From Haloarcula limicola (GTDB lineage Archaea > Halobacteriota > Halobacteria > Halobacteriales > Haloarculaceae): a stretch of DNA of 64,000 bases. The first letter of the stretch is position 1; every line of letters starts with the position of its first letter. The translations under genes were made by a program, and so were the position numbers. This document shows, piece after piece, positions 15,219-40,591 of this stretch. Location: positions 1-64,000 of the forward strand of contig NZ_WRXM01000006.1 of NCBI RefSeq assembly GCF_010119205.1, in the 5' to 3' direction. The notes under the pieces were generated by a model. The model had not been told where the DNA came from. It did no database searches and saw nothing but the letters and a program-made list of their open reading frames with translations.

Positions 15219-15383
15219 ATGTCTCTCATTGTCAAAGCAGCTGTGAAAGATGCGCTGTCGGAGCACAACGTCTCAGCGGATTTCTACGAAGCACTGGATG
15301 AAGAAGTCGCGGACCGGGTTGAAGACGCTGCCCAGCGTGCTGAAGCCAACGACCGCAAGACGGTCCAAGCGCGAGACCTCTAA
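15219..15383 (+). CDS. Small histone-fold protein (DUF1931-like), 54 aa
   Basis: The 54-residue product begins MSLIVKAAVKDALSEHNV and ends DRKTVQARDL. It matches the short haloarchaeal proteins of the DUF1931 type, which resemble part of a histone fold: a helix with AAVKDALS, a longer helix with ADFYEALDEEVADRVEDAA, and the final (K/R)TVQARDL strand typical of histone-fold C-termini. It may bind DNA or act as a small partner protein. It has its own TATA box and stands alone between the SMC-like and TBP genes. Assignment rests on remembered family sequences and was not searched. Confidence 0.75.
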   Translation: MSLIVKAAVKDALSEHNVSADFYEALDEEVADRVEDAAQRAEANDRKTVQARDL

Positions 15384-15427
15384 GACACGGCTGAGTAGTT
15401 TTTCTCTGACTACTCTGAGTCACGCCC

Positions 15428-15436
15428 TATTTTAAG
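15428..15436 (+). promoter_or_regulatory. TATA box of the TBP gene
   Basis: Reads TATTTTAAG, about 30 bases ahead of the ATG at 15462. It decides the start in favour of MSISAESIQ over the in-frame codon at 15447. Confidence 0.55.
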
Positions 15437-15461
15437 AGGGCTGTGGGTGCACAGTGTCAGT

Positions 15462-16022: not shown

Positions 16023-16149
16023 GTTTGTGCAAGTAATTATCGGCGCCGTTGACAGCGAATAAATAGAGCTTCTTGGACCCCGCTTGAGAATTCCTACTAC
16101 TTCCTTTGTCCCATACTGTTCGTGACTCGGAGTTCCATTATCTACTAGT

Positions 16150-17256: not shown

Positions 17257-17406
17257 ACTTTCGCACCTATAATCAATTATTATCCCTACCCCTATGAATT
17301 TATCGAGAAGTTGACTCTAGAGTTCAAATTTATCTGCCATGTTAGTGGACGGAGTTGCTATCGATTGATAATCTCCTTGTGTAAGTATAGTAACTGTATA
17401 GCTACA

Positions 17407-17434
17407 GGCCGGTAGTATTTACAGGGGACCGGCC
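17407..17434. promoter_or_regulatory. Inverted repeat straddling the P450 TATA box
   Basis: GGCCGGT (17407-17413) and its exact reverse complement ACCGGCC (17428-17434) flank a 14-base spacer that holds the TATA-like AGTATTTA at 17414-17421. The TATA element is about 30 bases before the GTG start at 17448. A protein bound here would block TBP, so this is a likely repressor operator. Confidence 0.6.
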
Positions 17435-17447
17435 GAGAGCGATAGAT

Positions 17448-18791
17448 GTGAGCGGTCAGCTACCACCAGCACCATCCAAACATCCAGTCCTCCAGCACTC
17501 ACTTCGTTACGCACGTGATCCGTTCGAGTTCGTAGAAGAAGCTACGACAGAGTGTGGAGATCTCTATCGGATGGAGCTGCCGAGCGTTGATGACGTATTC
17601 GTGCTCGCCCACCCAGATTATCTTGCTCAGGTTCTTGTCGACGACGTTGAGAAATTTGGGAAAACAGATGATTTTCGCCGAGCGTTCGGAAGTGGATTAC
17701 TTTCAGTTGAGGGACAGCAATGGCGACAGCAACGCGATATTTTGCAGCCGCTGTTTTTCCGTGACCGAATCACCGGCTACGTCGATGAGATGGTCGCCTG
17801 CATCGAACAGCGACTGGCGACATGGGAGGATGGTGAAACCCGAGACGTCGAGGAGGAGATGAGTGCGCTCACACTCGAAATTCTCTTTGCGACATTGTTC
17901 GGTCGGGAATTGTCCCCGGGCGAGGATGCAGACATCCGCGAAGCTGCTGATGGACTCAACGAGTGGTTCGCGCCGACCTCGTGGATTCTCCCCCACTGGA
18001 TGCCAACACCGGCTCGTCGACGCTTCAAGGAGTCCACTAACCGGCTTCAGGAAGAAGTGAGAACGCTATTAGCAGATGGGATGTCGGCTGCCCCGCCACA
18101 GCAGTCCGGCGGTTCAGACACCATGGATCTCCTCTCGCGACTCGAACAGACTCGCGACAGCGGAGAGGGAAAGCAGCTGACTACCGAGGAGATCGAGGAT
18201 CAACTTGTCACGATGGTCTTTGCCGGGCATGAAACTACAGCCACTGCGCTCGCGTTCACGTGGTATCTGCTTGCCACGCATCCGACCATCCGTGATGAGT
18301 TCCACAACGAACTCGATACAGTCCTCGATGGTGCTTCGCCTTCTCTCGAGGATATTGAGAAACTGGAAGTGACCGATCGTATCCTCACTGAGGCGCTGCG
18401 ACTCTATCCCCCGATTCATACGATTCCACGCAAGACGACAACCGATGTCGAGATGAATGGTCATCACCTCCCGGAGGGGCACGAACTCCATCTCTCGCTA
18501 ATCCATATTCATCGAGACGAGCAGTTCTACGATGATCCGCTCGAATTCCGTCCTAACCGATGGACAGATGGGTTCAGAGAGAGCTTGCCGGACTTTGCGT
18601 ACGCGCCGTTTGGTGGTGGGCGACGGACCTGTATTGGCCGCGAGTTCGCATTACTCGAAGCGAAGATTGCGCTCGCAATGATCGGACAGCGGTTCCAGCT
18701 AGACTGGGAAGCAAATCGAGAGCCCACACTCGAACCACGGATTACGATTCGCACCGAGAATGGGATGCCAATGCGGCTAAACCACCGGTAA
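17448..18791 (+). CDS. Cytochrome P450
   Basis: The 447-residue product is a heme-thiolate monooxygenase that would hydroxylate or epoxidise a small lipophilic substrate. Key motifs are the I-helix oxygen-binding stretch FAGHETTATAL (about residue 257), the K-helix ExxR in EALRLYPP (about 315), the PERF-like region FRPNRWTD, and the heme loop FGGGRRTCIGREFA with the thiolate Cys near residue 395. Length is normal and no membrane anchor is present, so it is soluble. The GTG start is preferred because the TATA box lies 30 bases upstream and ATG at 17446 runs straight into a stop. No ferredoxin or reductase gene lies alongside. Confidence 0.95.
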   Translation: MSGQLPPAPSKHPVLQHSLRYARDPFEFVEEATTECGDLYRMELPSVDDVFVLAHPDYLAQVLVDDVEKFGKTDDFRRAFGSGLLSVEGQQWRQQRDILQPLFFRDRITGYVDEMVACIEQRLATWEDGETRDVEEEMSALTLEILFATLFGRELSPGEDADIREAADGLNEWFAPTSWILPHWMPTPARRRFKESTNRLQEEVRTLLADGMSAAPPQQSGGSDTMDLLSRLEQTRDSGEGKQLTTEEIEDQLVTMVFAGHETTATALAFTWYLLATHPTIRDEFHNELDTVLDGASPSLEDIEKLEVTDRILTEALRLYPPIHTIPRKTTTDVEMNGHHLPEGHELHLSLIHIHRDEQFYDDPLEFRPNRWTDGFRESLPDFAYAPFGGGRRTCIGREFALLEAKIALAMIGQRFQLDWEANREPTLEPRITIRTENGMPMRLNHR

Positions 18792-19081: not shown

Positions 19082-19555
19082 ATGAGTGCAACATCGAACG
19101 CATCGGACGACTCGCCATCCAACCAAACTCGCCGTACGACCATTCGTGAGCGTGCCCAGCAGGGCCTGCTCACTGCAATGAGCAATCCTCGGTTTCGATC
19201 ACTCCTCCAACTGTCGCTTATTGTCGTCCTCTTTAGCGGATCGGCGATGGCACAGACCAGCATTGGTTCAGTGTACTGTGGGACGCCTGTCGAGAGGGCG
19301 ATTGGTCTCGTCTTTGGTGCGATAGCAGCACTAGGAATGCCAGCAGCGATGTTCTTCACGGGCCGAAGTGGGCTTTCCTACATGCGGGCGACAGGGAACC
19401 CAAACCAGCAGAATCAGGCTCGCCAGGATTTGATTCTCTCGGTGACCGGGCTAGCTATCATATTCTTGGCCTTGATTGCCCCGGAAATCATTTCGAAGCT
19501 AGGCAGCGAGCTCGGCTTCTCCTTTTCGAGTTGCGTCAATCCCTTCGGCGGCTAA
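19082..19555 (+). CDS. VirB2-like conjugative pilin candidate
   Basis: The 157-residue protein has the layout of a type IV secretion pilin: a basic N-terminus, a signal-like hydrophobic stretch ending AMAQ (a plausible cleavage site after SAMA), and two further membrane segments (AIGLVFGAIAALGMPAAMFF and LILSVTGLAIIFLALIAPEI) separated by a short charged loop. Two cysteines (VYCGTP and SSCVNP) could form a disulfide. It opens the nine-gene conjugation operon, where VirB2/TrbC genes usually stand. Sequence match to a named pilin family was not tested, so the call rests on topology and context. Confidence 0.6.
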   Translation: MSATSNASDDSPSNQTRRTTIRERAQQGLLTAMSNPRFRSLLQLSLIVVLFSGSAMAQTSIGSVYCGTPVERAIGLVFGAIAALGMPAAMFFTGRSGLSYMRATGNPNQQNQARQDLILSVTGLAIIFLALIAPEIISKLGSELGFSFSSCVNPFGG

Positions 19556-19582
19556 CGACGTCTCCGCACCTCTACATTACTG

Positions 19583-21421
19583 ATGTCACTCATAGGCCGA
19601 CTCGTCGTAATCGTGCTTGTCGCCAGTAGTCTGGTGACGCCAGCGGTAGCTGTCTCACCTTCGGATAGCACTGCAGCGTCGCCGCAGGTATCCAGTAAGA
19701 CTAGCACCCAGACAGTCGGCGGAACAGGACATCAGTGCGTTGCGAACCGCTCGGCCCGGTCTGAGCGGCCGGGAACTACTCCCCCGAACTACACGCATAC
19801 GTTCAATGCGTCGTCGTTCCGGGCGTATTGGTCGGGTGACGCGGACTACGCTCGTGTTAACACCACGTCGTCGTTGAGTCCACTGGGCCGTCTGTCCTGC
19901 TCTGGAGACATCATGTTCCGCGCACCGCCAAATGTCGAAGCGTGGAACGACCGCGAATTTGACCGCTATAACAACAGTAGCGGGTCACAGTATCCAGCAC
20001 GGGTCGCATCGACCGAGAGCCTCGTGGCAAACACGTCGTATGTCGAGATCTTCGCGATTAATCCCTCGACGGTTGTCCACGACGGGTCACAGACGACACA
20101 GTACGTCCGCTCGAATGGGACGGTTCGAACGATTGGCAGCTACAATGGCTCGGCCCTTGGCTGTGCGAACAAGACGACGAACGACTCCTGTATCGTCGAG
20201 TCGGCGAGCGTCAACACGGTCGGGTTGTACGCCAACGGAACGCGACAGGACACGGCGACGTCGCCGACGGCAGAACTCCAGTATCGGAATCTCACTGGGC
20301 CGACGATGTTGTCTGTGCGGCTGTCGCTCTCGGTGACGGTAAACCAGACGGCCGACAACGGTGAGAGTAACACGACAACGTACAATCGGACGCTACGCGA
20401 TTCACGGCAGGTCACTGCCTACGAGGTGACGGCATCGGATGCAACGGTATCGTTAGCCAATCACCGCAACAGTACGGGCGTCAGCCTCTCGATGCCGAGA
20501 CTGTGGCGTAGTGTAGCGTTTGAAACGGGTGACGTAGTCTACAGTCGCTGGCGATTCTATACCCGGAGTCCGCCGGGCTGGGTACAGTGGAATACATCCG
20601 CTGGAACGAACGTCTCGTCGACACAGCGGGTTCGTCCGTTACAGGTCCATGCGATACCCGCTCGGCGAGGCCCACTGGCGAACCTTGATCAGCACTCGCT
20701 GGCGACAGACGCACAGTTCTTCGAGGTCGGCGACGACTACGAGCGCATCCAGCGAGATTTCGTCGTCTCCTACCGAAAGGGACCGGAGGCGAACAAGGCC
20801 GGGCTCCCAGTCGACGTGCGACTGAATCAGTCTGCGACCCACACCAGAACGGAGCGCTTCACACTCCGGGCAAACGACAGCCATCCGCAGAGCGCTTATC
20901 GGTCGCCGACGGTGCGTAGTATCGTTCGTGGAGACACCACGGAGAGTCGGCTCTCGGCGTCAACGGTCGTCGATGCCTATCCGGCCAACATGAGTGCGAC
21001 GGTGGTCAACAGGACCACGAATGGAACGACGCTGTCAGTGACAGTTCGCTCGACGCGTGGATATCCCGTCGACTTCGGGAACGTGACCGCGACTGCTGGC
21101 AATAGTACGCGGACACACACGCTCGGTCCCGGTGAACGCGGAACGTTCACTATCACGATGCCGGAGCGGGGTCTTGACCAGGTGATCCTGACCTATCAGC
21201 CGAAGTATTACTGGTGGGAACAAGGGAACCCGGCTGTTAGTGGCATTGTCGCGACCGAGCGGACGACGACGGTGGAGTGGCTCGGGTCCAGTATTCCACA
21301 GTTCACCGACATCGTGGACCTCGTGGTCGTGACGGTCCTGTGGTTTCTCCCACTCGGGCTGTTGCTGTACGGATTCGACGTTTGGACGAACGGACGATTG
21401 CTTGGCATCTATTCAGCATGA
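19583..21421 (+). CDS. Secreted, membrane-anchored glycoprotein of the conjugation operon
   Basis: The 612-residue product has a Sec-type signal (MSLIGRLVVIVLVASSLVT, then AVAVS), a long extracellular part and one C-terminal membrane segment (IVDLVVVTVLWFLPLGLLLYG). The extracellular part is packed with Asn-X-Ser/Thr sequons, for example NYT, NAS, NNSS, NRT and NGT, so heavy N-glycosylation is expected. I recognise no domain. By position after the pilin gene it may form a surface part of the mating apparatus, such as an adhesin or channel collar. Its stop overlaps the following ATG. Confidence 0.75.
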   Translation: MSLIGRLVVIVLVASSLVTPAVAVSPSDSTAASPQVSSKTSTQTVGGTGHQCVANRSARSERPGTTPPNYTHTFNASSFRAYWSGDADYARVNTTSSLSPLGRLSCSGDIMFRAPPNVEAWNDREFDRYNNSSGSQYPARVASTESLVANTSYVEIFAINPSTVVHDGSQTTQYVRSNGTVRTIGSYNGSALGCANKTTNDSCIVESASVNTVGLYANGTRQDTATSPTAELQYRNLTGPTMLSVRLSLSVTVNQTADNGESNTTTYNRTLRDSRQVTAYEVTASDATVSLANHRNSTGVSLSMPRLWRSVAFETGDVVYSRWRFYTRSPPGWVQWNTSAGTNVSSTQRVRPLQVHAIPARRGPLANLDQHSLATDAQFFEVGDDYERIQRDFVVSYRKGPEANKAGLPVDVRLNQSATHTRTERFTLRANDSHPQSAYRSPTVRSIVRGDTTESRLSASTVVDAYPANMSATVVNRTTNGTTLSVTVRSTRGYPVDFGNVTATAGNSTRTHTLGPGERGTFTITMPERGLDQVILTYQPKYYWWEQGNPAVSGIVATERTTTVEWLGSSIPQFTDIVDLVVVTVLWFLPLGLLLYGFDVWTNGRLLGIYSA

Positions 21422-22308
21422 CAGACGAGACTTCACAATCGACGGAATCGAGTTGTATCGACCGACGAACACTCCTTGGTGCGATGGGCGGTGGTCTGGC
21501 GGCCCTCGCCGGGTGTAGCAACATCGGCGGGTCATCGAATGGCACCGCTGCAGGACCGACTGCAACGCAGAGTCCAAGTTCGAAGTCAGATGTCCTGAAG
21601 TCGCTGACCTTCGAGCCAAAAGCTGGTGTCAGTCCCCAAGTCACGGCACATTTCAAACTAGCAGAGGACTCGATGATTACCCGGATCGCGTTGATAAACG
21701 GGATGGGAAATGAGGTAAACCAAGCGTTGATATCTGCCCGCGAGACTGTCGCTAGCTTCGTTGTTGCGCGCCTTACTGACGAGCCGTCCGAACGGATTAC
21801 ACAAGGACAGAACACGCTCGTCCTCATCGGCGAACAGACAGAAGTTGAGATCCCGGTGACCTATTCGGCATCGCTTGAACTCCGCGATGTCATCGGTCCG
21901 GATGACTCCACTGAACTCCCACCTCCAGAGCGTGATGGGCGAAGACCGATCGGTCTCCTCGTCGAGAACACTGGACAACACGCGGACATTGCCCGGCAAG
22001 TCATTTCGAAAGATGGACCGCATCTAGAAGCGTTCGACAGTAAGACGTCGGACTATACAATCGATATGATGGTCAAGCCGGGATCGACAAAGCTGCTACC
22101 GGTGCGTACCTACCTCGCAGAAATTTTCGGCTGTCCGGAAAATCACACACGAGAAGCTACATTGACACTGAAACCGGCGTTCAGTGAGCCAATCACCTTC
22201 ACTCAGACATTCAGCTACAGTTCTGATGGAGAGAATTCGTGTGAGCTCTCACTGAACGGGGAACAGAGTATCGTTGAACGAACGAAGACCGGGACACAGA
22301 CGGAGTAA
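21418..22308 (+). CDS. Lipoprotein of the conjugation operon
   Basis: The 296-residue protein carries a twin-arginine signal (DRRTLLGAMGGGLAAL) and the lipobox LAGC, then a Ser/Gly/Thr linker and a beta-rich extracellular domain of unknown family. The ATG overlaps the upstream stop (ATGA), which decides the start over an in-frame codon at 21277 and shows translational coupling. A surface lipoprotein here recalls the VirB7-type stabilising subunits of bacterial systems, but that parallel is by position only. Confidence 0.75.
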   Translation: MTDETSQSTESSCIDRRTLLGAMGGGLAALAGCSNIGGSSNGTAAGPTATQSPSSKSDVLKSLTFEPKAGVSPQVTAHFKLAEDSMITRIALINGMGNEVNQALISARETVASFVVARLTDEPSERITQGQNTLVLIGEQTEVEIPVTYSASLELRDVIGPDDSTELPPPERDGRRPIGLLVENTGQHADIARQVISKDGPHLEAFDSKTSDYTIDMMVKPGSTKLLPVRTYLAEIFGCPENHTREATLTLKPAFSEPITFTQTFSYSSDGENSCELSLNGEQSIVERTKTGTQTE

Positions 22309-22311
22309 CCG

Positions 22312-23919
22312 ATGCCGAGTCAGACTCCGACTCCGGCACCAACTGCGGGTCAAGGCGACGGGCTGGGAACTCTCAGAGACACGTTCTTCCAGTCACTCCT
22401 TGATCTCCTCAATTTGTTTCCAGAGGAATTCGAGAGCTGGTTCCGCAAGTACGTGCTGGATGTACTCGTTGAGCCGCTCGTCGGCACTCCAGCGCCAGAG
22501 GGAGCCAGCGCGAGCGGGCTGAATATCGCATTCAAAAGCGCTGTAAACAGTCCGTGGAATACGCTCATAGATACCCTGTATTTCGACTACGTCGTCGGGT
22601 TGGCGTTCGGACTTCAGCTTATTGTCCTCGCGGCAGTGGGGGTTCGCTACCAAGCGATCAACCCAGCAGTCCGAAAAAAGATAGGCCGACGGATGGTATT
22701 AGCGTTCTTTGCGCTTTTCTTCTGGCTCCCGGTTGCGTCCATATCACTGCAATTTTTTGATGTCCTTGGACAAAGCATCTCGACATTTACCACGGCGGAA
22801 AAAGGAACGATAGCTAAGGAACTGTTTGTCTTCGGAAAGTTGTCTCTCTTTTCGCCAACAGTCTCATTCCTTCTGCTACTTGGCTTGCTCTATATTTATG
22901 CGAAGGTGCTTGTGGTGTCGATCACCCGGTGGATGGCGGTGATTCTCATCACGTTAGCGATGCCATTGGTAGCGACCTTCTGGGCACTGGAAGTGTGGCC
23001 GTTCCAGAGCTTCAGTGGTCTCTCAAAGCAGATTGCAGGGACGTATCCCGGCGCTATCGCAGCGAGTATCCCAACAGCATTGCTCATTCGCATCTCCATC
23101 GAGATTAACAACTGGGGAGTACCCGGAATGGGGCTGTTCATCAGCCCGCTGGTGCTGTTGCTTTGTGCGAAATTACAGAAGGCGATGCTCCAGAAGAGCA
23201 GCCCGACACTCGTCAAACTCAGCGACAAAGCAGTCGCAGCGGGAAAGAAACCTGCTGGCGTTGCGGGGACAATTGGTGGAGCAGGCCTGACGGCTGGGGC
23301 ATACCTCGCAGGTGGGCCTGCTGCTGGCGGGACCGTCCAAGCCGCCCAGGGTGTGCTGAAAGGTAATTCACGGGATGCCGCCACTGGCGCGCGGATGGTT
23401 CACCGCGAGATGTCCGGTGCATCGTCTCCTCCTTCGGGAAGTGGACCGTCCGGAGGCGGGCCATCTTCGTCACCATCGTCTGGTAGCGGTGGTGGTGGGA
23501 GTACAGGCAGCGTTGGAAGTACGGTCACCCCGCCAGCTGGTTCAACTAGTGGTACATCCGGGCGTGCCCCTCCGACGAGTAGCAGCGCCGGCGCCTCACG
23601 CAGCAGTAGTGGAGCGGCAGCCTCGTCCTCCACAGCAGGCCATTCCTCCTCGTCACCATCAACTGGGCAGTCAGCACACAGCGGCGCTGCTGGTCGTCCC
23701 ACGCAGGCTATGCAGAGCGGAGAGCCCGTGCCGAATCACACTGATACCGAAGTGTATCACCACGAGGAAGACGCTACGACAGACACCGAGCAAGAGTTCG
23801 ACTCCGTAGGTGACCGACTGCGTGCAGAGTTGAAGACTGACGCCGACGTGCTCGGTCCTGACGCCTACCGCTTCGACGATCAACCAATGAATTCTCCGCA
23901 GGAGACTACCGATGAGTAA
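22312..23919 (+). CDS. VirB6/TrbL-like polytopic membrane protein
   Basis: The 535-residue product has five or six membrane segments between about residues 90 and 300 (for example GLAFGLQLIVLAAVGV, MVLAFFALFFWLPVASI, FLLLLGLLYIYAKVLVV, WMAVILITLAMPLVATF). It then has a long low-complexity tail of Ser, Gly, Pro and Thr (about residues 370-470) and an acidic C-terminus. This is the layout of VirB6/TrbL inner-membrane channel proteins. It starts three bases after the lipoprotein stop and overlaps the VirB4-like gene by eight bases. The fold is inferred from topology and operon position. Confidence 0.65.
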   Translation: MPSQTPTPAPTAGQGDGLGTLRDTFFQSLLDLLNLFPEEFESWFRKYVLDVLVEPLVGTPAPEGASASGLNIAFKSAVNSPWNTLIDTLYFDYVVGLAFGLQLIVLAAVGVRYQAINPAVRKKIGRRMVLAFFALFFWLPVASISLQFFDVLGQSISTFTTAEKGTIAKELFVFGKLSLFSPTVSFLLLLGLLYIYAKVLVVSITRWMAVILITLAMPLVATFWALEVWPFQSFSGLSKQIAGTYPGAIAASIPTALLIRISIEINNWGVPGMGLFISPLVLLLCAKLQKAMLQKSSPTLVKLSDKAVAAGKKPAGVAGTIGGAGLTAGAYLAGGPAAGGTVQAAQGVLKGNSRDAATGARMVHREMSGASSPPSGSGPSGGGPSSSPSSGSGGGGSTGSVGSTVTPPAGSTSGTSGRAPPTSSSAGASRSSSGAAASSSTAGHSSSSPSTGQSAHSGAAGRPTQAMQSGEPVPNHTDTEVYHHEEDATTDTEQEFDSVGDRLRAELKTDADVLGPDAYRFDDQPMNSPQETTDE

Positions 23920-26900
23920 CTCGTCCAGCGAATTCAACACGAACATCATCCACGACGATCTGGGTGGCACCACCGAGTTTTGGGGGCAGTACACCTTCGG
24001 CGAACTGGTCCTATTCATCTGTCCCGTCTTCGGCTACTTCGCCCTCCTGGGCCTGCCGTTCGTCCCGGCTAGCTTCCTCTTGCCAGCGACGGGACTGCTG
24101 CTCGCGACCGAACTGCTGTTGTTCGGCTTGCATCGCGCCCGGCCCCGCTACTACCGACTGACCGAGTGGCTGGAGGTCCGTCTCCGATGGGCCCTCAAGA
24201 AACCGGAGTATCTGTTCGGCGATGGCGCACAGGATACGCGAACTGTCACGCGGCTCGACCGCGTCCTCCCCCACGGCGTCAAGCGCATCGATGGGGCACA
24301 TTGTGGCGCTGTGCAGGTCACGCCCGCCAACATGGCGCTCAAAGATGACGGTCAATGGGAGAAGGCCGTTCGATCACTCACCGACTTAGCGAACTCTCTA
24401 GAGGGCGAGACGAACCTGTACGTGACCACCCGAGAAATCGACCGCGACGCTCACGTCACGGCCCACCAGGAGCGCCTTGACGACGCCGACACGCAACGGC
24501 TGCCGATGCTCCGCGGGCTCTTGATGGAGTGGCTCAACCGCCATACAGACGACGACAGCCAGCCCGTCGACGGGACCGAGATGGAACGGGAGTACTACAT
24601 CATCGTCTCGGTCACCGACGCCGATATCGACGACATCGACCACGAGTCCGCCTCACTGCTCGGGTCGCTAGAGTCGCTTCCCGTTGTCGGCCGTGTCGCC
24701 GAGATAGTCTCCTCGGATGGTCTCACCGAAAGCGAGCGGGACACGTACAAGGCAAAGAAGTTGAAAGACAGAGTCGGCACGACCGCGCGGGCGGTCAACA
24801 GCCTCTATCGCTGTAGTGGGGACCCCGTCTCACCGCTGCAACTAGCGACACTCACGAAGGAATACTGGGCGTGTGAATCACAATCCTTCGGCGACCTTGA
24901 CGAAACCACGGGCCTCTCACCGGTCCACTACTCTCGGTCCCAAGACGCCGACGCACTGAACCTCGATATCGAAGACCTCGAAGAAAACGAGGTGCCCGAC
25001 TTCGATGACGACGGTGTCGGGGAAGTGCCGTCAACATTCAGACGGCCGGGTGAAGAGCAACGGTCGTGGCTCGCTCCCTCCGCGATTGACTGGGAAGAGG
25101 ACTACACGGTCATCGAGAGTGAGACGTACGCTCGGACGTTCTGGGTCGAAACGTTTCCGGAGCATCCGACCAGCGGGATGCTCGAACGACTCCTGCTGGA
25201 CACGGAGCTGAAGGCTGACGTCTCGATTCACATCAACCCGTACGATGCACAAGACGCGGTCTCGGCAATCTCCGAGTGGGTCTCCTCGCTGCGTGTGTTG
25301 CAGGAGGACGTCGGCGAACTAGATACGGAAGATCTCCAGCAGGACATTGAGCGAGCGAAGTACATCCGGCAGGCCGTCCGACGGAATCACGCCTCGCTCT
25401 ACAGAGCCGGCGTGTTTATTCGCGTCACTGCTGACAGCAAAGAGGAGCTACGCGAACAGACGAATCATCTGGAGACGCTAATGCGAGACTCGCCAGCGAA
25501 CTGTTCGATTAAGCGGGCGACCCGTCGTCAAGAACAGGGATTGGTTACAGTCTCACCGCTGGGCGGGAACGAACTCGGCCATGATCGGCTATCGTCGATG
25601 ACCGGCGAAGCCCTCGGCGCGTTGTTCCCGTTTTCCTCGAACTACCTCCGGATGGCCGACGGGATTCGCTACGGCACCCACGACCACAACGACTCGACGG
25701 TGCTAATTGACCCGTGGGAGTTAGAGACCGGTCATTCAGAGCTGGTGACTGGAATGCCCGGCGGCGGGAAGACCCACGGGACACAGGCTCGGGGACTGCG
25801 GATGATGAAGAAGCGCTCGGACGTCAAGCAGGTCTTCATTGATCCGGTCGGTGACATGCGTGGCAGCGCCGAAGTGCTGGATGCAAAGCGTATCACAGTC
25901 AGCGGGGAGACGCCGCTGAACCCGTGTGAGATGCATCCGACGCCACAACACGTCCTCGATGCGTCACCGGACATGGAACCAGTTCGGGCGAAGATGGACG
26001 AAGTCTACGGGGTCATCATGAACTTCCTGACCTCCCGGGATATCGACCTTGAGATGCACAGTGGGCTGATCACATTCCTGATTCAGACCATCTTCGAGCG
26101 CTCAGATATCGACCCCGACGACCCCTCGACGCATACGCCAGAGAATTCACCGACGATGCAAGATCTGCTGGGCCTCATTGACGAGATTCAAGCCGAGCCG
26201 GGCATGTTCCCCGGCGCTGAAACGGAGAGTGCAAAGACGACGATTCGGGCGTACGCCGATGAACTCTCGGTGGCGCTACAGCCGTTCCGCCGAGGGAGTA
26301 CCTACGGCAACCTTGCCGAAGAATCGAACCTGAACCTCATCGACAATGATAGCAAGGCCGTCTATCTGGATCTTCAGCAAGTCGAGGGCTCCGGGGATGG
26401 ACTGGGCAAGCAGTCGTTCATCATGCAACTGCTGCTCTCGACGCTGTATCAGCAGGCCAAGAACATGGAGACGAAGGTGGAGGTGATCATCGACGAGGCA
26501 CACTATCTCTTTGCCGACGATGCGAATCTCGCCTTCCTCAACCAGATCGCTCGCCACCAGCGCCACGCCGGGATTCGGCTGGTGATGCTCTCCCAGACGC
26601 TCCAAGAGTTCTATGATGGTGACGCCGCCGAGGAAATCGCAGGGATGTGCCCGATTATGGTCCATCACCGAGAGCCCGAACTGGACAGTGAGACTGCCAA
26701 GCGAGCCGGGATGACCAGCGAACAGCAACACTTCGTGAACAACGCGGAAGCCGGGAAAGAATCGGTCGGAACCGAGCAGGGCTACAGCGAAGCGCTGGTT
26801 CGAATCGACGAACACGGCGATTACCCGGTGCAGGTCCGGACGTCGTGGGAGGAGAAACAGGTCATCGATCTCGATACCCACGAGAAAAATCCGCTGGATA

Positions 26901-27256
26901 TCCTCATCGAGGAGCAGCCCGAGCGGGTCGACGCGTTCGAGGAATTCCTCAGTACCGAGGCGATGAAAGGCGTACTGGCCCACCACGGGCTAACGGTTGA
27001 CCAGGCCGAACACGTCCTCGCAGGACTCTCCGAGGAAGAACTAGTCGAAGCAGTGTCGGTGGCCCTCAGCCGAGCAACTGTCGACGAGAACGAAGAAACG
27101 CAGGAGCAGCGTTCGCCAACCGACGACGGAACCCTTCCAGATTCGATGATAGACACTGAGTCACAACTCCAGATGCAGCGCCAGACAGATACACCGTTTA
27201 CCGGCAACGGCACAGACGGAGCACCCCACGAGAACGGAGGTGAGTCGAATGAGTGA
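23912..27256 (+). CDS. virB4: VirB4-like conjugation ATPase (HerA/FtsK superfamily)
   Basis: This 1114-residue protein is the main energy-supplying ATPase of the DNA transfer channel. Two membrane segments near residues 28-70 anchor it. A long N-terminal domain is followed by Walker A GMPGGGKTHG (about 614-622) and Walker B VEVIIDEAHYLF (about 856-866), then the sensor-like RLVMLSQTLQEF. The C-terminal 150 residues are acidic and repetitive in character. Size is larger than bacterial VirB4 (about 800) because of the N-terminal membrane part and tail, as is usual for haloarchaeal versions. It overlaps both neighbours, so its expression is coupled to the VirB6-like and ribbon-helix-helix genes. 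Confidence 0.88.
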   Translation: MSNSSSEFNTNIIHDDLGGTTEFWGQYTFGELVLFICPVFGYFALLGLPFVPASFLLPATGLLLATELLLFGLHRARPRYYRLTEWLEVRLRWALKKPEYLFGDGAQDTRTVTRLDRVLPHGVKRIDGAHCGAVQVTPANMALKDDGQWEKAVRSLTDLANSLEGETNLYVTTREIDRDAHVTAHQERLDDADTQRLPMLRGLLMEWLNRHTDDDSQPVDGTEMEREYYIIVSVTDADIDDIDHESASLLGSLESLPVVGRVAEIVSSDGLTESERDTYKAKKLKDRVGTTARAVNSLYRCSGDPVSPLQLATLTKEYWACESQSFGDLDETTGLSPVHYSRSQDADALNLDIEDLEENEVPDFDDDGVGEVPSTFRRPGEEQRSWLAPSAIDWEEDYTVIESETYARTFWVETFPEHPTSGMLERLLLDTELKADVSIHINPYDAQDAVSAISEWVSSLRVLQEDVGELDTEDLQQDIERAKYIRQAVRRNHASLYRAGVFIRVTADSKEELREQTNHLETLMRDSPANCSIKRATRRQEQGLVTVSPLGGNELGHDRLSSMTGEALGALFPFSSNYLRMADGIRYGTHDHNDSTVLIDPWELETGHSELVTGMPGGGKTHGTQARGLRMMKKRSDVKQVFIDPVGDMRGSAEVLDAKRITVSGETPLNPCEMHPTPQHVLDASPDMEPVRAKMDEVYGVIMNFLTSRDIDLEMHSGLITFLIQTIFERSDIDPDDPSTHTPENSPTMQDLLGLIDEIQAEPGMFPGAETESAKTTIRAYADELSVALQPFRRGSTYGNLAEESNLNLIDNDSKAVYLDLQQVEGSGDGLGKQSFIMQLLLSTLYQQAKNMETKVEVIIDEAHYLFADDANLAFLNQIARHQRHAGIRLVMLSQTLQEFYDGDAAEEIAGMCPIMVHHREPELDSETAKRAGMTSEQQHFVNNAEAGKESVGTEQGYSEALVRIDEHGDYPVQVRTSWEEKQVIDLDTHEKNPLDILIEEQPERVDAFEEFLSTEAMKGVLAHHGLTVDQAEHVLAGLSEEELVEAVSVALSRATVDENEETQEQRSPTDDGTLPDSMIDTESQLQMQRQTDTPFTGNGTDGAPHENGGESNE

Positions 27257-27626
27257 GCGTGTCGCGTTCTATCCGCCTGAGGCCCAAAAGGAGATGATCG
27301 AGCGAATGGCCGACAGACAGGGAATGACTGTCTCCGAGTACTGTGTGGCAGCGCTCGATACGCAGGTAGCGCGGGATATCCGCTCCGAACGAGTGGCCGA
27401 AACGGCACTGGAACGACAGCTCGATGAGATGCAACAGGCTCTCCAGGACGAGATAGCGAGCGCACTCTCGCCATCGACTGACGACAGCGAACTCCATGGA
27501 GTGGCGCTCTGGAACTTGCTTGGAACGGAGCGGCCCAGCGATGCACAGGCCGATGCATTGGAGGAAGCATCGACCCGACTCGAAACGGGTGTAGAGAAAC
27601 TGCGACAACAGGAGGAGGATGCATAA
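27249..27626 (+). CDS. Ribbon-helix-helix protein 1 (relaxosome accessory candidate)
   Basis: The 125-residue protein starts with a ribbon-helix-helix-like segment: strand RVAFYPPEA, helix KEMIERMADRQG, turn, and helix VSEYCVAALDTQ. The rest is helical and acidic. Such proteins bind DNA as dimers and in conjugative systems often mark oriT next to the relaxase (TraY/MobC-type roles). The ATG at 27249 lies inside the VirB4 gene end; GTG at 27240 is an in-frame alternative. The next gene encodes a similar protein, and the relaxase candidate follows. Confidence 0.65.
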   Translation: MSERVAFYPPEAQKEMIERMADRQGMTVSEYCVAALDTQVARDIRSERVAETALERQLDEMQQALQDEIASALSPSTDDSELHGVALWNLLGTERPSDAQADALEEASTRLETGVEKLRQQEEDA

Positions 27627-28087
27627 TGCCAGAGCAAGCTCGCCTGCAGATCTATACGACCGAAGACGTCAACGAGAAAGTCGAACAGCGTGCCGACCAG
27701 GCCGATCTCTCGAAATCGAAATACTGCGAGATGGTGTTGAAAAAGCACCACGGGATGGAGCTGCGCGGGCGCCTTGCTCGGCACTCAGCTGACGAAGATA
27801 TTATAGCGACCATCGACGACGCTGCCGACGATATCTCCACCTCGATTGAGGAGGTGCAAGTTGAGGCGACGCCGGATCTCGAACACATTCAATCGCTGGA
27901 GACAATGTACGTCATCGCGCTGTGGGAACTACTCAAAGAAGACTACAGCCCAGCCGAACGTGAAGCAGCCATCAAACGGGCGGCGCTGCAGATGAACGAT
28001 GCTGCGGCGGACGCGAGCGCCATCGCCCAGACTGATGATGAGGAACAGCTATCGCCCCTTGATCCGCTGCTGGCCTCGGATTCATGA
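27626..28087 (+). CDS. Ribbon-helix-helix protein 2 (relaxosome accessory candidate)
   Basis: The 153-residue product has a similar N-terminal layout: strand RLQIYTTED, helix VNEKVEQRADQAD, turn LSKSKY, helix CEMVLKKHHG. The C-terminal part is a long acidic helical region. TAATG joins it to the upstream gene, and ATGA joins it to the relaxase candidate. Having two adjacent RHH proteins suggests a heterodimer or two binding sites at oriT. Conserved sequence between the pair beyond the fold is weak, so the duplication is old or the likeness is structural. Confidence 0.62.
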   Translation: MPEQARLQIYTTEDVNEKVEQRADQADLSKSKYCEMVLKKHHGMELRGRLARHSADEDIIATIDDAADDISTSIEEVQVEATPDLEHIQSLETMYVIALWELLKEDYSPAEREAAIKRAALQMNDAAADASAIAQTDDEEQLSPLDPLLASDS

Positions 28088-28674
28088 TTCTGAAAACGGA
28101 CTTCCAGCGGAGTGGTGCGGGCAAGCTCCTGAAATACATTCGCCGAGACCGGGAGGCAGACCAAGAAAAAGTGCCATTACGGGATCGGCTTGGGCGGGAG
28201 GCCGACGAACAACGTATCGAGCAGTTCCTCGAGCGAAGCAGCTGGTTCAACTTCCAGCGCCACCTCATCGTCTCTCCGGATCCCAGCGCCGAGTTCACGC
28301 CTGACGAAGTCAGCTCCAACACCCGCGAACTGCTGGAAAACGAGTTCGGGGGGCAACCGACGACCGACTACGTTTACGCCGTACACGACGACAGCGACAT
28401 CGTGCATTCACATGTCGCGGCAACCGGGAACGAGCCGGAATTACGGATGGATGCCGAAGAGTTAGAGCGTCTCCGAGGGTGTGCCAAAGAGGTATTTCGT
28501 GAACCAGAGCGGCTCAAAGGGCGGACACCAGAACGAGACTCGACGCCCCTTCCTGACGATGCAACGCGTGACCAAGCACAGACTCACGAAACAGCGGAGT
28601 CCACCACGCGGGACCCTGACAGAGACCCAGAAACCACCCGGGAGCGTGACTTCGACTTCGGTGGCGGTCGGTAA
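28084..28674 (+). CDS. Minimal relaxase candidate (MobA/VirD2-like)
   Basis: This 196-residue protein lies exactly where a relaxase is expected, between accessory DNA-binding proteins and the coupling protein. Near the N-terminus, SGAGKLLKYIRRD gives a candidate nicking tyrosine (Tyr18). Residues 101-112 read HDDSDIVHSHVA, which fits the relaxase motif III with His108 and His110 as metal ligands and His101/Asp105 ahead. FQRHLIVSPDP precedes it, as in MobA-type folds. The last 60 residues are charged and low-complexity. Most relaxases are over 300 residues, so this is among the smallest I would expect. It would nick and carry the transferred strand. The call rests on motif and context. Confidence 0.6.
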   Translation: MILKTDFQRSGAGKLLKYIRRDREADQEKVPLRDRLGREADEQRIEQFLERSSWFNFQRHLIVSPDPSAEFTPDEVSSNTRELLENEFGGQPTTDYVYAVHDDSDIVHSHVAATGNEPELRMDAEELERLRGCAKEVFREPERLKGRTPERDSTPLPDDATRDQAQTHETAESTTRDPDRDPETTRERDFDFGGGR

Positions 28675-31196
28675 TGCCCCAAGACTCGCAGTCCTCAACA
28701 ACACCGCCGGGACAGAAGCCCACCGAGTTACCGTCGAGTTTGAAATACGACGAACCGGCGATGATTCTCTGGAGTGTGTTCATGCTGTTGGTCCCGCCGA
28801 TGTGGGTAGATAGCGACAAGGCACTCCACAGACGCTTCTGGGCGTGGCGATACATCTACGCCGGGTTCGCCATCGTGACGGGCCTGCTTTTCGCTGAGGC
28901 CCTGCTCAGCGGCAGCTGGCTGGTGGCCATGGTATTCCCCTTCGCCCACATCATTGCGGCGGCTTCAGTTATCGGATTGTTTGCCGGCGTGCAGATTCCG
29001 GGTGTCGCCCCGCCCATCGTTTCCTACGAGGTGGGCATCGGAATCTATGCCATCTCGGTGGTGTTGATTGGCGTCATCGATATTGGCCGCCGTACCTCGC
29101 CTCGGTCACTAACGCGAAATCCGTGGGATTGTGACGACGACGAATTGGCTGTTCCGTACGAGAGTATCGAGTCCAAACACGACGATGCGCCCTCGTCGCC
29201 GACGCTCAAACAGGACGTCTCGACTGCCGTCCTCGGTGAGACCGGGAGCGGAAAATCCTCAGCGATGCAGCTACTTGCTTACCAGCTTCCCTACAACCGA
29301 GATACAGCGATCATTGCCCACGACGCCGGCGAAGAGTTCCAGCAGTTCTACGCTGATCTCGGCTTCGACGTCAAGCGCGTGGGACTGAATGGGGATGTTA
29401 CCTGGAATCTCTTCCAGGACGTCGACTCGACACAGGATTTCCGAGAGATTGCAGCGGCTATCTTCGGCAATCCATCTGGACACAACCCGTTCCACACGCC
29501 AGCCAAGCAGGTATTCGAGGATATGCTGCGCTACCTGCATCTGGAAGCCCAGAAGAATAACCGCCGGGAGAATCTCTCGCATCTGGACATCGTCTCGCTG
29601 CTCAAAGAGGGGCGAGTTGGAATCTACGAGGCACTCGACAGCTACGACCAACTCGAAGCCGGACACATAGACACTGACCAGGGGAAAGCTGCACAGAACG
29701 TCTATCAGACGCTCATCGAGTATACGCGGCCGGTTTTCGTCGAAGACTTCGCCGAGCATGGCTCGTTCTCGTTGCGGGAGTATATCCACAATCCTGATGG
29801 GCGAGTCCTCATCGTTGATTCGACGCCATCCCGAATGGCGACGCTCGGTCCAATGTTCCAGCTGCTGTTGGACTGGTCGATTCGCTTCGCGATGGAATCA
29901 CCGAATCCGACGGTCCATGTTCTCGACGAAATCGACCAGCTCCCGCCACTCAACCAGATTACGAACCTCACGGCGCGTGGTCGCAAAGAGAAAGCACGGG
30001 CGCTGGTCGGCGTTCAGACCATCGGCCAACTATCGGACACCTACAGCGACATCTCCGGTATCTTGGGTAACTGCCCGCAAGGCCTGTACTTCGGCCCGGG
30101 TGATGCACAGTCGACAGAGTTCATCCGCAACGAAATCGGCGAGCGACGAGTGCTGGACCGAACGGAGACTCACTCAATGTCTCGAAGTACCGGGTCGAAA
30201 ACTCAGCGCTCACAGTCACGAGAGAGCTTTCGAGAGACTGAGAAAGCGCCCATCACGCCGGGACAACTGCGGGACTTCGAACCCGGCGAGTGCGTGACCG
30301 TCACGCGAACGAACTGGTGGTATGGCCAGACACACGAACTGCACGAGGTTCGCTCTGGGCTGCCCGAGCGGGGAGCCGAGGCGCCTACGACGCCAAGGCG
30401 GGAAGACCCCGACGGTGACGTCACCGAGACGGATAGCTGGCTGACTATGCTCACACAGTTCATCGAGCACACGGGGGGTTCTACGGAAAGTGAGGACACT
30501 CAACCGGCCACTACTGAGAGTGACCCAGACGTCTGGGCTGCCGACGTTGAGGAGACGCCTTCGATTACGTATAGCGACCGACGATGGGGGGATGCACTCT
30601 CTCGGCTTGATGTCGATAGTGCCCCAGTCACACGAGGCCAGAACGTCGACGCTCTCTCAGATCTCTGCGAGATGCTGGACCGGCGTATTCTGGACTTGCC
30701 TGAAGGGGAAGGGACAACTCTTGAGATCCGCGAAATGCTCGTCGAACTTGATGCGGAAACTGGGCTGACACCAACCGAGACGCTTGACGCAATCGAAAAA
30801 CGGACAACAGTGCTCCAGCTGAGCGACTCGTTCCGCGAGACCTATCGATCTGCTGCGGTGGAAAGTGGCTCGGTCGCTAGCACGCCGGCGGGTGGCGAGA
30901 CGAATAATTCCGAGACTCACTTCGAACCACAACTAGATTCGCCACGACCGCCTGAGAAAGAGGAGACTCCCTCGTCAGCTGAAAGTGATGGAAGCGAAAA
31001 ACATCAGTCTTCAGATACATCAGCAACTGGTGCAGCGGCCCCGTCTGTAGCCAGCGGTGAGACCGAGGAGATAGACTCGAAGAGTGATGGTGACGACCAG
31101 TCCGCAGAGCCTGATTCAGGGACTTCATCTGCAGCCGAAGCTGACGCTGAGTCCGACGCTTCGGGCGACGATTTCGACGCGGCCGACTTCATGTAG
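28674..31196 (+). CDS. virD4: VirD4/TraD-like type IV coupling protein
   Basis: The 840-residue protein links relaxosome to channel and pumps DNA. It has N-terminal membrane segments (ILWSVFMLLVPPMWV; FAIVTGLLFAEALLSGSWLV; IISYEVGIGIY-like region), Walker A GETGSGKSSAM (about residues 188-196) and Walker B VHVLDEIDQLPPL (about 414-424), followed by RALVGVQTIGQL as a sensor motif. The last 250 residues are acidic, Ser/Thr/Glu-rich and probably disordered. TAATG couples it to the relaxase candidate. With the VirB4-like protein it gives this operon both expected ATPases. Confidence 0.85.
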   Translation: MPQDSQSSTTPPGQKPTELPSSLKYDEPAMILWSVFMLLVPPMWVDSDKALHRRFWAWRYIYAGFAIVTGLLFAEALLSGSWLVAMVFPFAHIIAAASVIGLFAGVQIPGVAPPIVSYEVGIGIYAISVVLIGVIDIGRRTSPRSLTRNPWDCDDDELAVPYESIESKHDDAPSSPTLKQDVSTAVLGETGSGKSSAMQLLAYQLPYNRDTAIIAHDAGEEFQQFYADLGFDVKRVGLNGDVTWNLFQDVDSTQDFREIAAAIFGNPSGHNPFHTPAKQVFEDMLRYLHLEAQKNNRRENLSHLDIVSLLKEGRVGIYEALDSYDQLEAGHIDTDQGKAAQNVYQTLIEYTRPVFVEDFAEHGSFSLREYIHNPDGRVLIVDSTPSRMATLGPMFQLLLDWSIRFAMESPNPTVHVLDEIDQLPPLNQITNLTARGRKEKARALVGVQTIGQLSDTYSDISGILGNCPQGLYFGPGDAQSTEFIRNEIGERRVLDRTETHSMSRSTGSKTQRSQSRESFRETEKAPITPGQLRDFEPGECVTVTRTNWWYGQTHELHEVRSGLPERGAEAPTTPRREDPDGDVTETDSWLTMLTQFIEHTGGSTESEDTQPATTESDPDVWAADVEETPSITYSDRRWGDALSRLDVDSAPVTRGQNVDALSDLCEMLDRRILDLPEGEGTTLEIREMLVELDAETGLTPTETLDAIEKRTTVLQLSDSFRETYRSAAVESGSVASTPAGGETNNSETHFEPQLDSPRPPEKEETPSSAESDGSEKHQSSDTSATGAAAPSVASGETEEIDSKSDGDDQSAEPDSGTSSAAEADAESDASGDDFDAADFM

Positions 31197-32343
31197 CGTC
31201 CCTGTTCCTTGGTCGGCTGCGTTCTCGCTGCACTCTAATTTTGTGGCCAGCTTTGTCTCGCTGCCCGGTTCGCAATTTGTGGTTCCTCTATTCTAGCTAG
31301 CTTACTATTCTCCGTACGTTGACGCTGGCACCGATCTCCAGTGACCAGTGTACGTTCCCCACATCGAGATAGCTACCTCCAGATTAGTCATCTTCTCAGT
31401 AAAATCATTTCTTCGAATACTTGTTGGTCTGAAATCGCAAGACGTCGCCGTTGGTAGTTACATCTATACAAGAAAATATTGCCTGTGACTTGCCCTAATC
31501 GCCCGACGGCAGCCGGATAAGTCACAAGTAGCATGACCGTTTATCTTGCCCCACAAATTCGGGGTAGTTTCGAGATAGTAGCCGAGCAAACATATCGAGC
31601 ACTCGAGTGTTCTGTCGAGGGCTGTCGCCAGACGATTCACCCCCCGTCATCGAGTTGTATTTCGGTGGCTACTGAATCCTTCATATTCCAGACATGTACT
31701 AGCCACACGCCGATGCACCCGGCCGGGAAGCTCCTCGCCAAATGGCTGCGCTCACTCACATCGATACTACAAGCCACCCCCTGCTTCGGCTGGCTGGCAG
31801 ACCCACGCGTGTCCCACTTCAATCGGTTCCAGGACAATGCCGAATACCACTCTGTAACCGAGTGCATTGTGCAGCGAAAAATCAATCTCATACCCCCGCC
31901 TTAGAGATGTCATCAGCACGCTCGTAGAGGATTCCAATACCGATCTCGCCGACCCTTCTCGGCATCGAATTGCCTGAATCCCAACACTTCATTTCGGACC
32001 GACTGGAGAGTTCTCATGGTCGTGATATTCAAAGACCTCTCGTTCAGCTATGCACTTCGCCACGATGTGAAGCACCGGCCTATGAGGTAACTCCATTTTC
32101 CCTCTTCACCACCAGATGTGGACTATGTCAGCAGCCCATCAGTGCGAGTCTACCACTAACCAACATCGTCCGGCAAGAGACAATTTTGTTGGTTAGCGGT
32201 GAGCTCCCTTTCCTTAGCGAACTAGAGATCGTCGCTTTCGCTGTCGATACACAGTCTAGCAACCGCCCATTCGGGTGCCCAATTTGCCAGTGGCCAAAAT
32301 ACGTAAGCCCATTCATATACTAGGCGGCCATTGAACTGAATTA
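31197..32343. other. 1.1-kb stretch with only weak coding signal
   Basis: Follows the conjugation operon. It is AT-richer than the genes around it. Two frames (31533-31904 and 31970-32323, +) carry cysteine pairs; the second is listed separately as a weak call. No repeats, promoter or RNA structure stood out. Confidence 0.45.
31970..32323 (+). CDS. Possible cysteine-rich small protein
   Basis: A 117-residue frame contains CTSPRC, CGLC and CPIC, which could build zinc sites. It matches no family I know, and codon use does not strongly look haloarchaeal. It may be a real zinc-binding protein or a decayed gene. The frame at 31533-31904 has a similar scattered Cys/His pattern but is even weaker. 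Confidence 0.25.
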   Translation: MPESQHFISDRLESSHGRDIQRPLVQLCTSPRCEAPAYEVTPFSLFTTRCGLCQQPISASLPLTNIVRQETILLVSGELPFLSELEIVAFAVDTQSSNRPFGCPICQWPKYVSPFIY

Positions 32344-39258: not shown

Positions 39259-40254
39259 CTACGCATGAGTGTCTGATTCCACGTCCCACGGAGCCAGCCG
39301 GGGACTCTCACCGGCACACCCGAACGAGGCGCGACAGTCGCCGGTCGGGGCGGGACCGTCGCCGCGTTCGAGGATGCACATGGTCGTCTTGCTCGTCACG
39401 GCCAGCGTCTTCAGCCCGTTGTACTCGCCGGGCTTGCCCCCACAGAGACGCACCCGGTCGCCTTCGTGAAGGGTTCGAACCATCGCGCCGCCGTGAACGG
39501 ATTTCACCCAGACCGTCACCTTCGCCGTGTCGCCGTTGTCATCCTCGACGTAGGCGACCTGATACTGATTCGGCGCGGCGGGGTCGTCGATAAGATGCGT
39601 GACCGTCCCCTCGATGGTGGCTTCGTAGCCATGGGGGTTCATGTCTGCAACGGGCACCGGTGCGTTCATCCCGGCACGGGCGGCCGTGAGCGCACCGAAG
39701 ACGCCGTCGAAGCGTGAGTCGGTGTCGGTCGTGTGAGTTGCGACGAGGCGGCTTGCTGCGGCGTGGCTGATGCCAGTCTGGTCGCTGACGGTGGTAGCGT
39801 CTCGATTCACGTCGGCCAGCGCGTCGGCGTCCATCTCAGCGCGGGGGTCTGGCTCTGCCTCGAAGGTTTCCGGTCGCTCTTGCTCGCTGGTGGTGAGCTG
39901 GCGGGCCGAGGTTTCGCGGTCGATCTCGTCGTGAGCATCGCGGGCCTGCTTGGAGTGCCGGGCCTGCTCGGCTTGCTCGCCGTGGCGTTGTTCCTGAGCG
40001 GCCAGCGTTTCGCCGTGGCGGCGATCCGGCGCGACATCGGTCGAACGGGTCCAGTCGTAGTCGTTCTGGCGAGCGTAGTAGTTGCCCCGCGAGTCACTGC
40101 CGCGATTGGGCCGGTAGTCGAGTTCGTCGCCGTTCGCCGTCTCGGCGACTGCTTCGAGGAGTTGCTCGGGGCCGCCGTCGACGTGGGCACCGAGTTGCAG
40201 CTGCTGGTCAATATCGGACGATGCTTTCTTACTGCCGGAGTCGTTAGCGTACAT
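39259..40254 (-). CDS. OB-fold single-stranded-DNA-binding-like protein
   Basis: The 331-residue protein has a charged, Gln/Arg/Glu-rich N-terminal half that is probably disordered or coiled (AAQEQRHGEQAEQARHSKQA), a short helical segment with VSDQTGISHAAASRL, and then an OB fold of about 100 residues: ATIEGTVTHLIDD, YQVAYVEDDNGDTAKVTVWV, VRTLHEGDRVRLCGGKPGEY. This is the RPA/ssDNA-binding type of OB fold. Similar proteins are common on haloarchaeal plasmids and integrated elements. The start at MYANDSGSK was chosen over an in-frame codon nine residues upstream. Two Cys near the end (GDCRASFGCAG) might bind metal. Confidence 0.75.
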   Translation of the reverse strand: MYANDSGSKKASSDIDQQLQLGAHVDGGPEQLLEAVAETANGDELDYRPNRGSDSRGNYYARQNDYDWTRSTDVAPDRRHGETLAAQEQRHGEQAEQARHSKQARDAHDEIDRETSARQLTTSEQERPETFEAEPDPRAEMDADALADVNRDATTVSDQTGISHAAASRLVATHTTDTDSRFDGVFGALTAARAGMNAPVPVADMNPHGYEATIEGTVTHLIDDPAAPNQYQVAYVEDDNGDTAKVTVWVKSVHGGAMVRTLHEGDRVRLCGGKPGEYNGLKTLAVTSKTTMCILERGDGPAPTGDCRASFGCAGESPRLAPWDVESDTHA

Positions 40255-40591
40255 TGTCTTCTTGCGCCTACGGGAAGACACTTATCGGGTGTTCCAGCAC
40301 CCGATTTCCTGCGGCGTGAAACGGCCTTCGTGAGCGCCGCGTGTCGTGCCTTTCCGTACATAAGGCCACGGGTGCATGGTACTTAAAACCAACGACCGAA
40401 GTAGGTTGCTTCAAGTGGAATAGAATAACGATAGAGTGGCCCAGAAGGCGTATTTCTGATTTCGAATTTTTGCGAGATTAGTATATAAATGCGAGTTGAT
40501 GGGATACCCTCGACGGCGGGGGACATCTTGTGCGGTTGCGGTGTCGTGAGCATCCCGTGGGGCCGCCCGAGTGCCGGATGGGTGAAAGCCC

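Follow-up and report, generated by a model that had tools for sequence, protein, structure and literature searches.

Results

A nine-gene operon on a circular plasmid

The window analysed here is a stretch of 64,000 nucleotides from Haloarcula limicola (contig NZ_WRXM01000006.1, positions 1 to 64,000), and our subject is a putative conjugative transfer operon of nine co-directional open reading frames (ORFs) on its + strand, at 19082-31196. An earlier note, made from the sequence alone, had proposed a haloarchaeal conjugation operon of nine overlapping genes in this interval. All nine ORFs are in place at the coordinates first given, and profile matches to the VirD4, VirB4, pilin and relaxase families bear the proposal out. 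The ends of the contig (C6, 97,872 bp) share a 77-bp direct overlap, and it is therefore a circular plasmid of ~97.8 kb. In order, the operon encodes a type IV secretion system (T4SS) pilin, a glycoprotein, a twin-arginine translocation (TAT) lipoprotein, a polytopic protein, VirB4, two NikA-like ribbon-helix-helix (RHH) proteins, a relaxase and VirD4:

19082..19555 (+), T4SS pilin (VirB2-like) of 157 amino acids (aa) with two hydrophobic helices; Pfam T4SS_pilin PF18895 at 8.6e-7, above the cut-off, and transmembrane (TM) prediction
19583..21421 (+), surface glycoprotein with a signal peptide, 26 N-glycosylation sequons and a C-terminal TM helix; homologue in Natrinema-type systems (28%, 3e-41)
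21418..22308 (+), TAT lipoprotein with RR and the lipobox LAGC; start at an ATGA overlap, conserved in relatives
22312..23919 (+), polytopic membrane protein with 5 TM helices and a low-complexity tail; its position and topology suggest a VirB6-like protein
23912..27256 (+), VirB4 ATPase; NCBIfam CD1110 VirB4 at 8.4e-42 and Mbov_0397 VirB4 at 4.3e-27
27249..27626 (+), RHH accessory protein 1, NikA/MobC-like; PF21983 NikA-like at 4e-5, below the curated cut-off
27626..28087 (+), RHH accessory protein 2, NikA-like; PF21983 at 0.007, below the cut-off, with a conserved position
28084..28674 (+), minimal MOBP-type relaxase (P0008) of 196 aa; PF03432 at 1.7e-7, alignments and fold match
28674..31196 (+), VirD4/TraD type IV coupling protein (T4CP) with 3 N-terminal TM helices and a variable acidic C-terminus; TrwB_AAD_bind at 6.7e-34 and TraG-D_C at 1.8e-14

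Six of the eight junctions overlap as had been claimed, and two are gaps, of 27 bp between the pilin and glycoprotein genes and of 3 bp between the lipoprotein and VirB6-like genes. An ATGA overlap with the glycoprotein gene sets the lipoprotein start at 21418, not 21277. Overlaps of 8 bp are found at both the VirB6/VirB4 and the VirB4/RHH1 junctions, where RHH1 probably starts at ATG 27249, and the last three junctions read TAATG (RHH1/RHH2), ATGA (RHH2/relaxase) and TAATG (relaxase/VirD4).

VirB4, T4CP and relaxase occur together in this one cluster, a combination that, along with MPF genes, marks a conjugative T4SS in the sense of CONJScan. The earlier note had considered that VirB4 and VirD4 might instead group with non-conjugative HerA helicases. 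On profile scores, VirD4 is a T4CP, with a HerA/DUF87 match (3.7e-4) far weaker than its TrwB_AAD match (6.7e-34) and a TrwB match in the PDB (5e-7), and VirB4 belongs with the conjugal VirB4 models, both of whose matches fall below the models' strict cut-offs. The VirD4 gene is present in a single copy in the genome. A VirB4 profile found no match among PDB sequences, and the Ced import models were not passed (CedB 16.5 bits against a cut-off of 700, CedD 15.8 against 600). Two N-terminal TM helices of VirB4 (residues 33-73) suggest a fused VirB3-like part. The pilin also weakly matches the Mbov_0395 pilin-like conjugal protein. Profile matches support the pilin and both ATPases of the original description; its channel protein is a putative one, placed by position and 5 TM helices. 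The surface glycoprotein probably serves in mating contact or in passage of the S-layer.

A minimal relaxase

P0008 scores 32.0 bits against the Pfam Relaxase family PF03432 (curated cut-off 24.6). Its motif I tyrosine, Y18, lies within LLKYIRR, and HDDSDIVHSH reads as H101-x6-H108-x-H110, the motif III pattern of MOBP relaxases. Y18, H101 and H108 are invariant in 11 aligned relaxases at identities down to 30%, as is H110 in the 10 closest. An AlphaFold model was built from a ten-row alignment and searched against the PDB with Foldseek, where the minimal relaxase domain from MobA of R1162 ranked first (probability 1.00). The first ten rows of a VIA-align comparison were all conjugative relaxases (MobA, NES, pKM101 TraI, pCU1 TraI and MobM; Z 10.4-7.9), with R1162 MobA at 10.4 over 139 residues and pKM101 TraI at 9.3; the next was an HUH Rep, the geminivirus Rep domain, at Z 6.3. 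A relaxase profile run against PDB sequences returned Ras-family chance matches only, and it was the fold comparison that settled the identity of the protein. With a family match above the curated cut-off, catalytic residues in place and a fold match to solved relaxases, the relaxase candidate of the earlier note is upheld.

A candidate origin of transfer and nick site

The interval first proposed excludes the likely origin of transfer (oriT), which lies ~350 bp past its end:

31395..31570 (+), candidate oriT, a non-coding block conserved among relatives, ~200-370 bp behind virD4
31540..31550 (+), candidate nick region TTTATCTTG^CC, from motif enrichment on the operon strand

Within the block, AATCGCAAGACG (31433-31444) and AATCGCCCGACGG (31497-31509) form a direct repeat, and TGTGACTT (31484-31491) and AAGTCACA (31519-31526) an inverted one; the block terminates in GACCGTTTATCTTGCCCC. 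In aligned full operons the repeat and the site are present, with variations. The nic position is predicted to be between 31548 and 31549 on the + strand. The 18-mer around it occurs once in the plasmid and has no second match at up to 2 mismatches in the 3.9-Mb genome.

The motif was counted in 38 non-redundant relaxase loci of 6 kb each, with 60 dinucleotide-shuffle runs as the control. TTTANCYTGY was present on the operon strand in 30/38 loci and on the opposite strand in 1/38, and shuffled sequences gave a mean of 0.57 loci and a maximum of 3. The base that follows, which was outside the search pattern, is C in all 30. Full operons carry the motif 3.2-3.8 kb past the relaxase start, just behind virD4; in cassette-only loci, which lack the channel genes, it is mostly 525-695 bp before the relaxase start, ahead of the RHH gene, and in a few it is downstream. 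The MOBP nick consensus is (C/T)ATCCTG(C/T), cut as YATCCTG^Y, and RP4 reads CACCTATCCTGCCCGG (PMC3772185). The candidate TTTATCTTG^CC bears a close resemblance to this bacterial consensus, and TTTATCTTGCC agrees with a (C/T)ATCCTG(C/T)-type nick region except for C->T. An exact inverted repeat directly abutting the nick, examined as a possible hallmark of every oriT, turned out not to be universal.

Five loci (L009, L013, L056, L057 and L059) form a subgroup in which motif III of the relaxase reads HxQ, and in four of these TTTGGCTTGCC replaces the strict site upstream of the RHH gene. HxQ also occurs in L091 (G073:C33), in which relaxase and VirD4 are apparently fused in one 688-aa open frame, with a nick-like TTTATCTTGCC 1.1 kb upstream.

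One gene beyond the candidate oriT is kept downstream of the operon in relatives:

39259..40281 (-), possible leading-region gene for an OB-fold (SOSS-B/RPA-like) protein

Its product is 60% identical to a pNG500 protein annotated as SOSS complex subunit B, whose own OB match is weak (PF16900, 0.004). The gene may correspond to the ssb genes that lie in leading regions in bacteria. Behind the candidate nic of loci L004-L007, ~46/57 annotated genes run opposite to the operon strand, as in bacterial conjugative leading regions. A short sequence at 38826-38948, adjoining the OB-fold gene, matches two places in several relatives and could be a replication or stability element.

Variants of the candidate nick site follow the relaxase

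Site states and gene trees were compared over 27 distinct operons, by counting changes among four site states on each tree and in 200 shuffles. The relaxase tree requires 4 changes (shuffles: mean 8.5, minimum 7), the VirB4 tree 9 (mean 8.6) and the VirD4 tree 7 (mean 8.4). The nick-site variants track the relaxase tree and not those of VirB4 or VirD4. Since the site adjoins virD4, linkage alone would predict the opposite.

L046 is an example. It is the sister of the window's operon in VirB4, yet its relaxase groups with that of L048, and L046 and L048 both carry TTTTACTTGCC. Identity between the window and L046 is ~0.88 across the operon and 0.61-0.79 inside 27.4-28.6 kb (RHH1, RHH2 and relaxase), while the synonymous divergence (dS) is 0.9-1.4 in this block and 0.2-0.6 elsewhere. 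L006 and L047 display the reverse pattern, with dS of 0.12-0.16 in the block and 0.34-0.70 outside. Fast protein evolution as the source of the signal is countered by the parallel rise in dS and by its reversal in L006/L047. Together, the rise and the reversal therefore point to exchange of the DNA-processing block by recombination, and we read RHH-RHH-relaxase as behaving like an exchangeable cassette.

Distribution and channel-less loci

The nine genes keep their order in pNG500 of Haloarcula marismortui (NC_006393), two JP-L23 plasmids, H. pelagica, H. hispanica and contigs from further Haloarcula species; in some of these relatives the operon contains gaps or an insertion sequence. pNG500 and the plasmids of JP-L23, H. 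pelagica and H. hispanica have a nick-like site behind virD4, and pNG500 is 63% identical to the window in VirB4 and 47% in the relaxase. All 12 PLSDB plasmids with VirB4 at at least 60% identity carry the relaxase (12/12). One copy of the operon lies inside a 3.48-Mb contig (G106), and integrated forms therefore exist. The possibility raised in the earlier note that the cluster is fixed in all strains is contradicted by the patchy, mostly plasmid-borne relaxase family, which is present in 34/391 sampled genomes of the class, 12/86 genera and 17/24 genomes of the same genus. A search of viral contigs for related loci found none.

Plasmids of Halorussus, Halomarina, Halobacterium, Haladaptatus, Halalkalicoccus and others carry the relaxase with an upstream small gene in the RHH position and VirD4, with no pilin or VirB4 gene nearby. 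VirD4 comes after the relaxase in nearly all fetched loci. These channel-less plasmids have the anatomy of mobilizable plasmids and may be mobilized. MOB-suite called 21/22 plasmids with this relaxase non-mobilizable, and haloarchaeal plasmid mobility is therefore probably under-counted. In a 21-kb Haladaptatus plasmid (L012), a gene series with the RHH-relaxase pair is present twice, possibly a dimer or an assembly artefact.

Other genes of the window

Directly upstream of the operon, 13181-18791 encodes an SMC/SbcC-like protein, an extra TATA-binding protein and a cytochrome P450, and the SMC-like and P450 neighbourhoods are common to the JP-L23 plasmids. A locus at 52263-61833 (-) resembles type I Druantia defence systems: its 1807-aa helicase matches DruE1 over the full length (E=0), its neighbours match DruD weakly, and a PD-(D/E)XK nuclease is adjacent. 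At 41426-47512 (+), a 2028-aa protein matches TmtA, a candidate defence protein (3e-193).

Discussion

We put a probability of about 0.82 on the reading that the operon is the module by which a circular haloarchaeal plasmid of ~98 kb conjugates, and that it works like a bacterial MOBP conjugation system. The reading is built on gene content, order and conservation, the fold class of the relaxase, the strand-specific site and its coupling to the relaxase, all taken from sequence, and from these we infer nicking, binding, delivery, export and the envelope roles. The two RHH proteins would bind the repeats in the non-coding block 31395-31570, and the 196-aa relaxase would cut the + strand at TTTATCTTG^CC (31548^31549) through Tyr18 and remain on the 5' end. 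VirD4 would deliver the relaxase-DNA complex to a channel made of VirB4 with its probable VirB3 part, the VirB6-like protein and the VirB2-like pilin, with the glycoprotein and lipoprotein as a putative archaeal envelope part. DNA from 31549 onward would enter first, with the OB-fold gene among the early genes and the tra operon at the end. RHH-RHH-relaxase with a matching oriT would form an exchangeable specificity cassette that, joined to VirD4, may also ride on channel-less, probably mobilizable plasmids.

The proposed module shares with bacterial MOBP systems (RP4 TraI, VirD2 and R1162 MobA) the motif I tyrosine, the H-x6-HxH motif III, NikA-type RHH partners and a candidate nick region close to the form (Y)ATC(C/T)TG(Y). 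Unlike theirs, the haloarchaeal relaxase is a bare HUH domain of ~150-200 aa that lacks a long C-terminal part, the site is TTTANCYTGYC and the envelope proteins are archaeal. Gram-positive and Mollicute FATA-type T4SS (CD1110/CD1115 and the Mbov_0395-0397 integrative and conjugative element) supply the best family matches for VirB4 and the pilin and have a similarly minimal set without VirB7-VirB10, but the window scores far below their curated cut-offs and its VirD4 is nearer to TrwB/TraD. Natrinema-type haloarchaeal T4SS plasmids (for example NZ_CP100758, L104) keep the channel part: homologues of the pilin, glycoprotein, VirB6-like protein and VirB4 (47%) follow one another in the same order. 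They differ in having no RHH or relaxase genes and, after VirB4, a 382-aa protein and a 1021-aa T4CP instead. Just behind the T4CP, these relaxase-less plasmids have a conserved NrS-1 polymerase HBD-domain protein (L104 16885-18153, L105 16651-17874), possibly involved in DNA processing. Crenarchaeal pNOB8, Thermococcus pT33-3 and the Ced/Ted import systems are alike in their VirB4/VirD4 ATPases and, for Ced/Ted, in pili; they differ in that no relaxase has been identified in the crenarchaeal conjugative plasmids, pT33-3 or Ced/Ted (PMC12857230, PMC9905601).

Several observations weigh against a MOBP-like transfer module. The HxH of motif III is replaced by HxQ (H110 -> Q) in one relaxase subgroup, and the AlphaFold model of the relaxase is of moderate confidence (mean pLDDT, the predicted local distance difference test, 61; core 70-85). 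The motif was found in the very loci in which it was counted, so that its statistics are partly post hoc. Of the 38 loci, 8 do not have the strict motif; these include L046 and L048, which have TTTTACTTGC, and the HxQ group, where it is TTTGGCTTGCC in most. Four lineages fetched later gave one exact site, two TTAAACTTGCC (one change) right after a hairpin and one without a site; the nick site is therefore frequent, not universal. Only in some subgroups is there a strong inverted repeat next to the nick. VirB8, VirB9, VirB10 and VirB11 were not recognised, and the VirB6 assignment is a tentative one from position, for a protein with no profile match and a low-confidence structure model (pLDDT 38).

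The conserved motif could be a promoter or other regulatory site rather than oriT, given that TTTA resembles a haloarchaeal TATA box and that the motif lies upstream of the RHH gene in channel-less plasmids, where a promoter is expected. We think this improbable, although it is the alternative that survives best: in full operons the motif follows virD4 and no + strand gene lies at a constant spacing from it (in pNG500 the next gene is ~875 bp off), its conserved core extends through CYTGYC, and its variants follow the relaxase. The HUH protein might also be a rolling-circle replication initiator and the motif its double-strand origin, with the T4SS transferring DNA without it, as other archaeal conjugative plasmids are supposed to do. 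The HUH fold is common to relaxases and Reps, the geminivirus Rep domain comes next after the relaxases in the fold comparison, and the same channel genes occur without a relaxase in some haloarchaeal T4SS plasmids (Natrinema type, L104). Against these points, RHH and VirD4 genes flank the gene in full operons and VirD4 follows it in nearly all fetched loci, its ten top structural matches are conjugative relaxases, and motif III and the candidate site fit the MOBP type, so we regard an initiator as unlikely. We give no better odds to a decayed relic that has lost transfer, as insertion sequences or relaxases with in-frame stops in some relatives might suggest, since the nine window genes are all intact and the ratio of nonsynonymous to synonymous divergence (dN/dS) against L046 is low (0.04 for VirB4, 0.17 for the relaxase). 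Least credible is a machine that imports DNA, like the crenarchaeal Ced system, or secretes protein: VirB4 is weakly similar to the CedB/CedD ATPases (0.0025-0.004) and archaeal import systems use VirB2-like pili (PMC9905601), but the conjugal VirB4 model match is ~38 orders of magnitude better, and export is what one expects of a plasmid with a patchy distribution that carries a T4CP, RHH proteins, a relaxase and a candidate oriT.

A MOBP-like conjugative module in Haloarcula has partial precedents. A 2011 computational screen named pNG500 as its one conjugative archaeal plasmid (PMC3158045), a relaxase on a Haloarcula californiae contig was described as a rare trait in 2019 (PMC6333295), and MOBP1 profile matches were reported in 2021 from the plasmidome of a halobacteria-dominated lake (PMC8563766). 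Papers and a review of 2019, 2023 and 2025 state that archaeal conjugative elements have no known relaxase (PMC6563490, PMC9905601, PMC12857230). The remark in the earlier note that few archaeal systems have so full a set is thus accurate for experiments and reviews, less so for computation, where pNG500 had already been called conjugative. Within the open literature, with subscription journals and preprints outside the search, we met no account of an archaeal oriT or of a cassette that behaves in this way, and in the literature searched neither an oriT nor transfer was described for pNG500 and related Haloarcula plasmids. Single Haloarcula relaxase matches had already been reported; what appears to be new is the oriT, the way it is coupled to the relaxase and the behaviour of the cassette.

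Conclusions

It seems reasonably likely that Haloarchaea conjugate by relaxase-driven transfer of a single strand, using a defined family of oriT sites and a portable RHH-relaxase-oriT cassette that is exchanged between operons and, with VirD4, carried on hitch-hiking plasmids, and that homologous channels serve two modes of DNA processing, with a relaxase in Haloarcula and without a recognised one in the Natrinema type. Haloarcula is culturable and has workable genetics. With a relaxase, accessory proteins, a coupling protein, a channel and a nucleotide-resolved candidate nick site at hand, the question of an archaeal relaxase is directly testable, and a known oriT would offer a route for conjugative DNA delivery in Haloarchaea.

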